A program made the position numbers and the translations under genes. Shown here in pieces: positions 5,964 through 8,864 of a stretch of DNA of 10,862 bases; position 1 is the first letter of the stretch, and every line of letters begins with the position of its first letter. Source of the DNA: an uncultured Clostridium sp. (lineage in GTDB: Bacteria; Bacillota; Clostridia; Lachnospirales; Lachnospiraceae); assembly GCA_905192625.1 (NCBI GenBank), contig CAJJLI010000029.1, positions 1-10,862 on the forward strand, read 5' to 3'. The notes below the pieces were generated by a model. That model was not told where the DNA came from and did not search any database. It saw only the letters and a program-made list of their open reading frames with translations.

Positions 5964-6902
5964 TTAGTTATTACCTAATGTTGCAACCATAACTGCTTTA
6001 ATCGTGTGCATACGATTTTCTGCCTCATCAAAAATAACTTCCGCATGAGCTTCGAATACCTCTTCTGTCACTTCATTTCCTTTAACTGCTGGTAAGCAAT
6101 GCAACAAGATTGTTGACTCTTTTTTTGTCATATTCATTAAGTTAGTATTCACCTGATATGGACGAAGTAACTCAATTCTACTTGCTGCTTGATCTTCTTC
6201 TCCCATAGAACACCATACATCAGTATACACAATATCTGCATCTTCTATTGCATCTAAATTCTCTGAAATTTCGATAATGCTTCCAGATTCTTTTGCATAT
6301 TCCTTACAAGTACTAACTAGTTCTTCTTCCGGCCACAAATTCTTAGGTGCTAATATTGTAAAATGAATTCCTATCTTTGCAGCTCCGATCATTAAACTAT
6401 TCGCCATATTGTTTCTTCCATCACCAACAAAAACTAATTTTAGACCTGCCAACTTGCCAAACTGTTCTTTTATTGTTAAAAAGTCTGCAAGAATCTGTGT
6501 TGGATGATCCGAATCCGTAAGTCCATTCCAAACCGGTACTCCACTGAATTTTGCTAATTTTTCAACGGTTTCTTGAGCAAATCCACGGTACTCAATCCCA
6601 TCAAACATACGTCCCAAAACCCTAGCCGTATCTTCAACGCTCTCTTTATGCCCTAATTGTATATCGTTTTTTCCTAAATATTCCGGATGCGCTCCTTCAT
6701 CAATGCAACCCACCGTAAATGCACAGCGAGTACGAGTGGACGGCTTTTCAAAAATTAAAGCTATGTTTTTTCCTTGCAAACTTTTCCCCGTAATCCCTTG
6801 CTTCTTTTTCGCCTTCAAATCTGCTGCTAGATCAATAAAATATAAAATTTCTTCGGCTGTAAAATCTTTCAATGTTAAAAATGATCGTCCTTTTAAATTC
6901 AT
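5964..6902 (-). CDS. argF: Ornithine carbamoyltransferase
   Basis: It converts carbamoyl phosphate and ornithine to citrulline in arginine synthesis; it is cytosolic, usually a trimer. The start at 6902 ([11 protein letters not shown], 312 residues) is set by AGGAGG 7 bases upstream; an in-frame ATG at 6935 lacks a ribosome site and adds non-family residues. Motifs are the carbamoyl-phosphate STRTR (55-59), HPTQ (133-136), the [11 protein letters not shown] block, the ornithine-loop SMGEED (232-237), HCLP (268-271) and the C-terminal [15 protein letters not shown] plus the SMG loop separates it from aspartate and putrescine carbamoyltransferases. Some stretches ([18 protein letters not shown]) recall catabolic ArcB, but the insertion common in ArcB after HCLPA is absent and no arc genes are near. 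ARG-box-like sites upstream favour the anabolic role. I see no clear terminator after it. Confidence 0.95.
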
Positions 6903-6924
6903 ATTATACCCTCCTAATAATTTG
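6903..6924 (-). promoter_or_regulatory. argF ribosome binding site
   Basis: TTAGGAGGGTATAAT lies directly before the ATG, with a 7-base spacer after AGGAGG. It decides between the two possible argF starts and lies immediately downstream of the repeat array in the predicted leader. Confidence 0.85.
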
Positions 6925-6974
6925 ATCGTTTTCATAGTGTAATATTTTAAAATAAACCCAATGGCTTACTTAAC

Positions 6975-7198
6975 ATATTACATGCTTATTTATGTTACTT
7001 GCTTATGCATGCCGCTTACTTATACAAGGCACCTTCGTATTCAAGTCACTTTTTATTCAAAACACTCTCTTATTCAAATCATTTCTTATTTAAGTCACTT
7101 CTTATTTAAGTCACTTTTTATTCAAGGTACTTCTTGTTCAAGTCACTTTTTGTTCAAAGCGCTCTTTTATTCAAAGCGCTTGTTAATTCATGTTACTT
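6975..7198 (-). repeat. Array of ~14 degenerate 16-17 bp repeats with palindromic cores, argF leader
   Basis: In plus-strand spelling, cores begin at 6975, 6992, 7009, 7026, 7043, 7059, 7076, 7092, 7108, 7124, 7140, 7156, 7173 and 7190, so the spacing is always 16 or 17. The commonest core is AAGTCACTT (7043, 7092, 7108, 7140). Variants include AAATCATTT (7076), AAGCGCTT (7174) and AAGGCACCTT (7026), where both arms have changed together so that the palindrome is kept. ATGTTACTT occurs near each end (6992, 7190). Cores are joined by AT-rich segments that read TTGAATAA or similar on the minus strand. The period is not a multiple of three, so the array is not a coding repeat. It lies between the predicted argF promoter and its ribosome binding site. 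Confidence 0.88.
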
Positions 7199-7220
7199 AA
7201 TAATTCTTATGTATATACGT

Positions 7221-7238
7221 ATTGAAATATTATTCATG
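7221..7238 (-). promoter_or_regulatory. ARG-box-like operator 1 of argF
   Basis: The minus strand reads CATGAATAATATTTCAAT. This agrees at 16 of 18 positions with the B. subtilis AhrC box as I remember it (CATGAATAAAAATKCAAK). It would lie at about +11 to +28 of the predicted transcript. The arginine repressor ArgR/AhrC binds such boxes with arginine as corepressor. Confidence 0.65.
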
Positions 7239-7240
7239 TT

Positions 7241-7258
7241 TATGTGTATTTATACATT
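7241..7258 (-). promoter_or_regulatory. ARG-box-like operator 2 of argF
   Basis: TATGTGTATTTATACATT (plus strand) fits the general ArgR pattern TNTGNATWWWWATNCANA with two mismatches and contains the dyad TGTAT-TT-ATACA. It overlaps the -10 box and is separated from operator 1 by only 2 bases, like the paired ARG boxes known from E. coli. Confidence 0.6.
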
Positions 7259-7283
7259 ATACTTCAAACATACATTTTGTCAA
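7256..7283 (-). promoter_or_regulatory. Perfect-consensus sigma-A promoter, probably of argF
   Basis: On the minus strand TTGACA (7278-7283) is followed after 16 bases by TATAAT (7256-7261); both hexamers match consensus exactly. The next minus-strand gene is argF, about 347 nt downstream of the predicted start near 7249. No other promoter of similar quality lies closer to argF. Confidence 0.8.
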
Positions 7284-7566
7284 TAATTTTTTTTATAATA
7301 ACTTATATTTAATAAAAATTACTAAGCCGTTCCAAAGTGCATATCCACGCATACCTTTATTTAATTATAACAAACCTTACAATGTCACTGCACATCAAGA
7401 ATGTATTTCTAATATTGAACAAAGAATGTACAACGGTATTCCCCACGCTTGAGCGGTTTTCGTAGCATTATATTTCTACCGTGAAGTGCGCATTTCGCCA
7501 CGTATTGCCTTTTTTAATTATAAGAAGATTCATTTTAATACTTTGCATTGACTATGTCTTTCCTAT
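7284..7566. other. Intergenic region with a diverged direct repeat, no gene seen
   Basis: There is no convincing coding region on either strand. A segment at 7335-7370 recurs in diverged form at 7485-7523; both share AAGTGC, CACG and a TTTAATTATAA tail, with 20 of 25 matches over the best part. A small bulged hairpin (CGTG..GCG/CGC..CACG, 7480-7502) is followed on the plus strand by a T6 run (7510-7515). Confidence 0.45.
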
Positions 7567-7615
7567 AATTAAATAAAAGTCTATCTTCCTACTCTTGCAA
7601 AAGGAAAATAGACTT
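7566..7615 (-). terminator. Terminator of the patatin-like gene
   Basis: On the minus strand a 13-bp stem (7603-7615 with 7577-7589, one G-U pair) encloses a 13-nt loop and is followed by TTTATTTAATT. It lies about 35 bases after the stop at 7650. Confidence 0.8.
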
Positions 7616-7649
7616 CTGGGATTCTAGACGAACTACATAAATTAAAACT

Positions 7650-8864
7650 TCATACCATTGGATTCGATTCATTTGAAATTACCACTAGATTCATCACTAA
7701 GTCTATAAATAGGGGCAGTCTAAAATTCTTATCTCTTGCTTTTAACATTTTATATTTTTCACGTATATTTACAATTAGTTCGCCTACCGTATAAACCTTA
7801 TACTTTTGTACTCGTACATTTTTGGCGCAGAGTTCTAACATTGATAAATATAATTCCTCATAGCCCCAGTGCTTCGATAATTTTAGTTCTTCTGCAATCA
7901 TTGGTAGTACCTTCTCTAATAAATTTCTTAGATACATCGATGCATCGTCGTAGTCCAAATGATAATATTCCAAGAATGCCATTTGCGCATACTCATTGCT
8001 CTGAACAAGTCGATGAATACATTCTTCCTCGCTTAATGCACTTTCAATATAATATATATATCCCTTCAAGGAACGGAAAACACGTAAACCATCGTAATAA
8101 CCAATCTTCATGTTACGGATACTTTTTTTGCTATCAAAATCAAGAAGATTACCAAGCTCTACTCTTGGAGCTATTTGTATAATTTCTACGTCTTCTGGTA
8201 TCTTTATACGCTTTTCAAGCCCTATTCCATAAATCCGTACAACAATTATATTTTTATAGCCACGTTTGATCAAGCGATCCACAGGCACATTATTAATGAT
8301 GCCACCATCCATGTACTTTTTCCCATGTAGCTTTTCATTTTTAAATGCAGGAAAATAAGCACTCGCTAATAAATAATCCTTTAAATATTCCCCATTGTCT
8401 GCATTTACTGGTATTTCAAGTTCCTTAAAACCCGTTACTAAAAAAGTGCCCAACAAAAGTTCGATTGGTGAATTTATTATTTTTTCTTCATCCACACATT
8501 CATCAATTAATTGTTTTAGCGGATCAATATTTAAACCTCCATCGGTTAGAAATTTAATTACTGTTTTCGATAATAGCTTTAAATCAAGTTGCTTAAGATT
8601 TAAGTTCATCAGATGATTCATCTGTTCATCATCTACTTGCATAACTTGCGAATAAGAGATGTTTTCCCAAATTGATTCTGCCTTTTTTATATCTCCCATG
8701 CACATAAGCGCTCCATTTAATGCTCCTACGGATACACCTTAGATACCTTTGATTTTCATCCCACATTCTTGCATCGCTTTCCATACACCAATTTGGTATG
8801 CACCTTTTGCACCACCACCTTCAAGCACTACACCATACTCTTTGCTAAAGTCAAACTGTGGCAC
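7650..8864 (-). pseudogene. Patatin-like phospholipase broken by one in-frame stop codon
   Basis: Read through, the frame encodes about 404 codons from GTG 8864 (MPQFDFSKEYGVVLEGGG), with GAGGGG 8 bases upstream. The N-terminus has the oxyanion-hole motif GGGAKGAYQIG (16-26). Next comes TAA at codon 42 (8739-8741), then GVSVGALNG (43-51) with nucleophile Ser45. The dyad Asp is in MDGGIINNVPVDRLI. A C-terminal extension of about 200 residues follows, without recognisable motifs. Intact members are cytosolic or membrane-associated lipid acyl hydrolases of the RssA/patatin group. The single TAA (probably from TCA or a similar codon) separates the oxyanion loop from the nucleophile, so a product started downstream (for example ATG 8705) would lack both. 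The rest shows no frameshift or decay, suggesting a recent mutation, a sequencing error or recoding. It stands alone with its own terminator. Confidence 0.88.
8739..8741 (-). other. Premature TAA codon in the patatin-like gene
   Basis: The codon sits between Ile41 and Gly43 of the GI-x-GVSVG block, three codons before the catalytic serine codon (8730-8732). The frame is continuous and family-like on both sides. Confidence 0.9.

Follow-up and report, generated by a model that had tools for sequence, protein, structure and literature searches.

An apparently private tandem array of short palindromic units in the argF leader of an uncultured Clostridium sp., probably a minisatellite-like repeat

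The 5' leader of the argF gene of an uncultured Clostridium sp. (Lachnospiraceae) carries a tandem array of 14 short units, which is probably a minisatellite-like short tandem repeat, built by local duplication in a leader of variable length and private to its lineage. It is most likely a new representative of the intergenic short tandem repeats. The units show a dyad symmetry beyond chance, which is moderately supported, and a special regulatory system for argF has no support beyond this symmetry. All positions refer to the window, the whole stretch of 10,862 nucleotides that was analyzed (contig CAJJLI010000029.1).

The array and its surroundings upstream of argF

The array occupies 7198-6975 on the minus strand, the coding strand of argF, and by hand placement is composed of 14 units, 16-17 bp apart, with the consensus unit AAGTGACTTGAATAAR. 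Successive units start 16 or 17 bases apart, except for one step of 18 (u11 to u12), and the centers follow each other at 16-17.5 bp, confirming the regular core starts without a skipped unit that the initial annotation had described; the unit variants quoted there (AAATGATTT, AAGCGCTT, GAGCGCTT, and AAGGTGCCTT) are all found on the argF strand. In the hand alignment, units u2-u11 (7026..7181, minus strand) have dyad cores of 8, 9, or 10 bp, and the three units at the argF-proximal edge, u12-u14 (6975..7017, minus strand), are diverged, as measured by their distance to the consensus. A fifteenth, poorer core would start 12 bases further along and was left out of the unit count. Tandem Repeats Finder reports a row at 6985-7157 (16 bp x 10.6, score 149) and places u2 and u3 in separate rows (7148-7190), with u1 and u14 lying at or outside the edges of its rows. 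With at least four head-to-tail imperfect copies in non-coding DNA, the feature is an intergenic short tandem repeat array, and when the intergenic sequence of the window was simulated five times with a Markov-1 model, no array with a period of 10-35 and at least four copies appeared.

The argF gene (5964..6902, minus strand, ATG at 6902) encodes an ornithine carbamoyltransferase of 312 aa, the product scoring 436 bits against TIGR00658 (cut-off 281). The array ends 72 bases from the ATG, with the ribosome-binding site AGGAGGG at 6915-6909 (minus strand) in between, and on its other side a sigma-70-type promoter, TTGACA-16-TATAAT (7283-7256, minus strand), agrees with the consensus at 12/12 bases, so that the claimed place between a consensus promoter and the argF ribosome site holds. 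This promoter is the best of four sites in 6850-7700, where shuffles give 5.6 sites of any quality.

Directly after the -10 element, a position that the box also takes in relatives, is a putative ArgR box (ARG box 1, ATGTATAAATACACAT, 7242..7257, minus strand), which is followed after about 20 bp by an ARG box 2-like sequence (TGAATAATATTTCA, 7223..7236, minus strand), placed by comparison of its position with relatives, its pattern alone not exceeding chance expectation (2 matches versus 1.2). The order on the minus strand, going upstream, is therefore argF, the array, the two ARG-box-like sites, and the promoter. A scan of the window with a box matrix ranks 7257-7242 second, with a matrix that is rough because its top score fell on a low-complexity stretch (2050-2065) and because box 2 was aligned automatically.

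Several known elements were considered as the identity or content of the array. Catabolite-type sites were rejected or weakened, as none of the 23 window matches (with up to two mismatches) to the CcpA cre site pattern WTGNAARCGNWWNCA lies inside 6975-7198. The same applies to an Rfam leader family, no Rfam family reaching its gathering score in the window.

Other repeats are present nearby. The intergenic region that contains the array also has a 29-mer in two directly repeated copies (79%), at 7345-7373 and 7498-7526, which lie 153 bp apart and upstream of the argF promoter. An inverted repeat at 7577-7615, with 14-base arms that are 93% complementary and 11 bases between them, lies after a patatin-like gene and is followed by a T-rich stretch (minus strand); it is perhaps the terminator of this gene, and the terminator scan listed none.

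Duplication, symmetry, and folding of the units

The likeness among the units follows their order. Adjacent units differ on average in 5.1 aligned columns and non-adjacent units in 6.7, with none of 5000 random orders giving so low a value, and the divergence from the consensus grows toward the array edges (Spearman -0.71, p 0.004). The units u6 and u7, including the following spacers, are identical 16-mers. Such a pattern is typical of tandem repeats that turn over in their middle, and similar neighbors together with diverged edges are what local duplication would produce.

The initial annotation suggested that the core is kept symmetric by selection rather than being a decaying microsatellite. 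A palindrome as long as AAGTGACTT is not rare in the letter-shuffled 16-base consensus (p 0.18), and covariation between the arms is better evidence for symmetry than palindrome length. In the hand alignment of the 14 units, for which the cores were aligned from both ends and the center gap was placed where the dyad gains, 47/56 cells are Watson-Crick paired versus 38.5 in column shuffles (p <0.0001, 20,000 shuffles), and six cells are changed on both sides versus 1.3 expected. Four of these double changes affect pair 4, from T-A to C-G in u2, u3, and u12 and to G-C in u11, the others being pair 3 in u8 and pair 2 in u14. The 10 distinct cores alone give 32/40 paired versus 24.7 (p 0.0003), the six distinct mid-array cores give p 0.022, and the set including the fifteenth core gives 48/60 versus 39.7 (p 0.0001); all these p-values take the units as independent, neighbors being related, which is answered only partly by circular shifts and reversals that preserve neighbor likeness, 27/27 of which score lower (at most 43 versus 47). 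Of 32 axes scanned across the aligned unit, the dyad axis is the best, the next one having a p of about 0.04.

With the three length variants removed, leaving nine-base units only, 36/44 cells are paired versus 31.6 (p 0.007-0.008), and the seven distinct nine-base cores give p 0.02-0.03. In a machine alignment, with 26 other arrays treated identically, the best axis of the window array has a z of 2.67 and ranks 6th of 27, and among axes largely paired in the consensus it is second best. With its best consensus dyad tested on machine-aligned units, the window array has p 0.025, and none of the 26 other arrays, many of them with little variation, falls below 0.3. Symmetry beyond chance is supported in part, strongly by the 14 hand-aligned units and less so by the nine-base units and the machine rank. 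In the hand alignment it is above both the shuffles and the 27 controls, which plain drift would not predict.

The proposal that ACTT and AAGT arms of neighboring units pair in alternative ways fared less well. Between the right arm of each unit and the left arm of the unit after it there is no covariation (38/52 paired versus 36.5, p 0.27), and pairing of adjacent units was rejected or weakened for want of it. The predicted fold of the leader has a z of -2.8, with 0/100 shuffles equally stable, or of -4.0 with slightly different ends, and the array alone reaches -4.0; in the ensemble, u2:u3 pair with a mean of 0.94, u6:u10 with 0.77, and u5:u11 with 0.64-0.71. That the leader folds well follows from the ability of palindromic units to pair among themselves. 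Most of the covariation sits at the innermost pair of the unit, which is not a pair of an intra-unit RNA hairpin, since 0-2 loop bases remain. Among the nine non-Watson-Crick arm cells on the transcribed strand, four are G.T and none is A.C, a weak hint toward RNA.

Five of the 11 relatives' leaders that were folded have z below -4.7 (L099, L001, L101, L104, and L108), and the remaining six range from -2.2 to 0.3. Ordinary upstream 200-mers from four relatives (162, 116, 59, and 82 regions) fall below -4 in 7-11% of the cases, and the 200 bases nearest argF in the window have a z of -1.35. The idea that argF leaders are exceptionally structured was not upheld, as windows of equal length are not clearly apart from those of other genes.

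Relatives and other intergenic arrays

We placed argF by tblastn at 119 loci with 115 distinct upstream regions, some of which end at contig ends (e.g., L126), the ArgF identity being 56-83% and at least 70% for 59 of them. The nearest ArgF proteins, from searches that included a family sample drawn from a larger group, are 83% (genome G031) and 82% (a Herbinix MAG and others) identical. Chains of AAG-N2-4-CTT cores, 15-18 bases apart and searched on both strands, reach a length of 7 in the window and at most 3 in each relative, and no array of 16-17 bp units is found in any of the 115 distinct upstream regions, including the 59 with at least 70% ArgF identity. Close relatives lacking the array had been named in the initial annotation as speaking against its reading, and such an absence is what the comparison gives, with a nearest relative of only 83% ArgF identity. 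The array appears to be private to its lineage. A single relative, locus L136, carries a repeat upstream of argF, of 13 bp x 4.2.

The strict box pattern TGTATAAWTANNCA is present at 25/119 loci (24 genomes without the duplicate), 57 to 307 bases from the ATG in these loci and about 355 bases in the window, and the length of the argF leader is therefore variable in the group. By eye, other relatives have different box-like sequences or carry argF directly behind another gene. In the closest relative, G031, the argF leader contains a tandem 91-96 bp unit made of hairpins (L099, 1248-1442), which recurs in diverged form at a second place in that genome (L175, 794-1088) and is a dispersed palindromic element, also found in tandem copies.

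A census of the intergenic sequence of sampled stretches (period 10-35, at least four copies) found 20 arrays in 672 kb of G031, the nearest genome examined. The samples of G253 (287 kb), G290 (247 kb), G001 (253 kb), and G047 (160 kb) contained 4, 2, 4, and 1, respectively, with a 16 bp x 11.1 array among those of G001, versus 0 in the 400 kb sampled of G022. The load is thus strongly unequal among relatives, and Markov-1 intergenic controls, five each for G031, G253, G290, G022, and the window, contain no arrays. The window array, with its score of 149, would rank 9th of 21 if placed among the G031 arrays. Eighteen of the 20 G031 arrays could be classified, 14 lying in co-directional, 4 in convergent, and 0 in divergent gaps, where the gap lengths predict fractions of 0.71, 0.14, and 0.15; the four in convergent gaps are therefore not leaders.

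Visual comparison showed no unit that is like the window unit over its full length, and two G031 arrays, both in L229, have AATTTTATAGAA in common. The closest in shape is the G001 array (L242, 2125-2305, 16 bp x 11.1), which lies upstream of a frame that appears sigma-factor-like from its translation. An array in G047 (L259, 14274-14357, 17 bp x 4.9), whose unit TAAGTTTCTTACAATAG also has AAG-NNN-CTT, sits between two co-directional frames, the upstream one being miaA-like by eye.

If all tandem repeats with periods of 8 to 150 are counted, they are present in 5/39 of the relatives' argF gaps versus 53/657 gaps of other genes in four genomes (G031 38/279, G022 4/157, G290 4/106, and G253 7/115), and argF is therefore no clear hotspot for them. 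Counting the window, the number is 6/40 (the others being L099, L104, L105, L135, and L136) for gaps of at least 100 bases, 17 shorter gaps and three loci without an upstream gene being excluded. At least four copies of a 10-35 bp unit are present in 2/40, the window and L136.

Searched as DNA against 195 relatives, the array matched at least three at E values up to 0.001, with pieces of only 30-32 bases, among the matches listed; the matches in 16 genomes are all short, with a best E of 0.001. Plasmids gave no match, phage gave 10 records at E 0.2-0.8 only, and viral contigs, searched with two consecutive units, gave nothing. The multi-copy matches in G007 (C. polysaccharolyticum) were rejected as kin of the array, the ten places (L089-L098) belonging to an unrelated dispersed element with long hairpins, mostly with a variable number of AGCTAAAAAACAGCGAC-type units.

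Origin and possible function of the array

Duplication in place would build the array downstream of the promoter and the paired ArgR boxes. Judging from the position of the promoter, the array would be transcribed within the leader, and the boxes common to relatives suggest that ArgR at the promoter-proximal operator controls argF. The array itself would most likely be a tolerated expansion, with little or no influence on the length or folding of the leader. The palindromic core may be partly due to chance, since palindromes of 9 bp are not rare in units of 16 bp, and partly kept, either by weak selection or by copying errors that correct palindromes. The uneven array load, with none in the G022 sample, counts against the tandem-repeat reading.

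The array resembles bacterial intergenic minisatellites (VNTR loci) in its head-to-tail imperfect units, its intergenic position, its private sequence, and its neighbors being most alike with diverged edges, but unlike them it has a unit core that is a dyad with partial covariation. The promoter and boxes are placed as in relatives and as in ArgR-controlled argF promoters with paired ARG boxes, whereas the array lies downstream of these boxes and is not built of them. Repeated short palindromes before a biosynthetic gene are also known from the met boxes of MetJ, which are contiguous 8-mers, in contrast to the dyads of 8-10 bp found here 16-17 bp apart, for which there is no candidate protein. 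In Mycoplasma hyopneumoniae, the regions 5' of genes contain tandem repeats and palindromes with a proposed effect on expression (PMC5179023); these share the intergenic position with the array, but the bacterium is distant and the comparison is one of description. Among the titles listed in a literature search, none describes such an array upstream of a gene for ornithine carbamoyltransferase.

The symmetry invites other explanations. A multi-site operator, in which each 8-10 bp dyad binds one homodimer and the occupancy tunes argF, would account for the intra-unit covariation, with its six double-changed cells above the 27 shift and reversal controls, and for its concentration at an innermost pair that is impossible in an RNA hairpin. 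We consider it unlikely, given that the gaps of the hand alignment favor symmetry, that the nine-base units and the machine rank weaken the signal, that no relative examined has the array and no similar array was found elsewhere, and that a distance of only about 5 bp between half-sites leaves little room for a helix-turn-helix dimer. Improbable to much the same degree is a many-site platform that was born fast, a duplicated palindrome recruiting many copies of a dimeric regulator or forming a unit-to-unit RNA ladder, with the symmetry selected and the core drifting in sequence and length. A special regulatory platform for argF, as initially suggested, is not supported by the 0/115 other upstream regions and by the nearest genome, where such arrays are common. 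If instead the units paired as a structured RNA leader (u2:u3, u5:u11, and u6:u10), with the fold affecting stability or translation of the argF mRNA, then the low z values of leader and array, the strong ensemble pairs, the G.T cells among the unpaired arm cells, and the five stable leaders of relatives would fit, yet any palindrome array folds well, neighboring units do not covary, six of the 11 relatives' leaders are unremarkable, the 200 bases nearest argF are weakly folded, and ordinary upstream regions reach similar values, which makes this a distinctly doubtful explanation.

Two further readings have less to recommend them. Template switching in replication could perfect quasi-palindromes that are then spread by duplication, explaining the double changes without a ligand and agreeing with u2 and u3 being adjacent near-copies; arms of 4 bases are short for such perfecting, and we regard this mutational origin of the symmetry as very unlikely. 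An extended ArgR operator made of half-sites, with TTGAATAAA in each spacer, is hardly credible: the array begins directly after ARG box 2 and the spacer is, by eye, like the left half of some relatives' box-like sequences, but all half-site copies have one orientation, and the matches inside the array are not above chance for the rough matrix (5 versus a Markov mean of 6.8, 4 versus 4.6, and 3 versus 2.7 at three thresholds), so that half-sites as array content were rejected or weakened.

The preferred reading of the array as a minisatellite-like repeat fits a group in which some genomes carry many private intergenic tandem arrays, and the presence of an array before a gene is therefore, by itself, weak evidence of regulation. 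If the symmetry proves to be under selection, repeat expansion would here have given rise to an operator or a leader structure.
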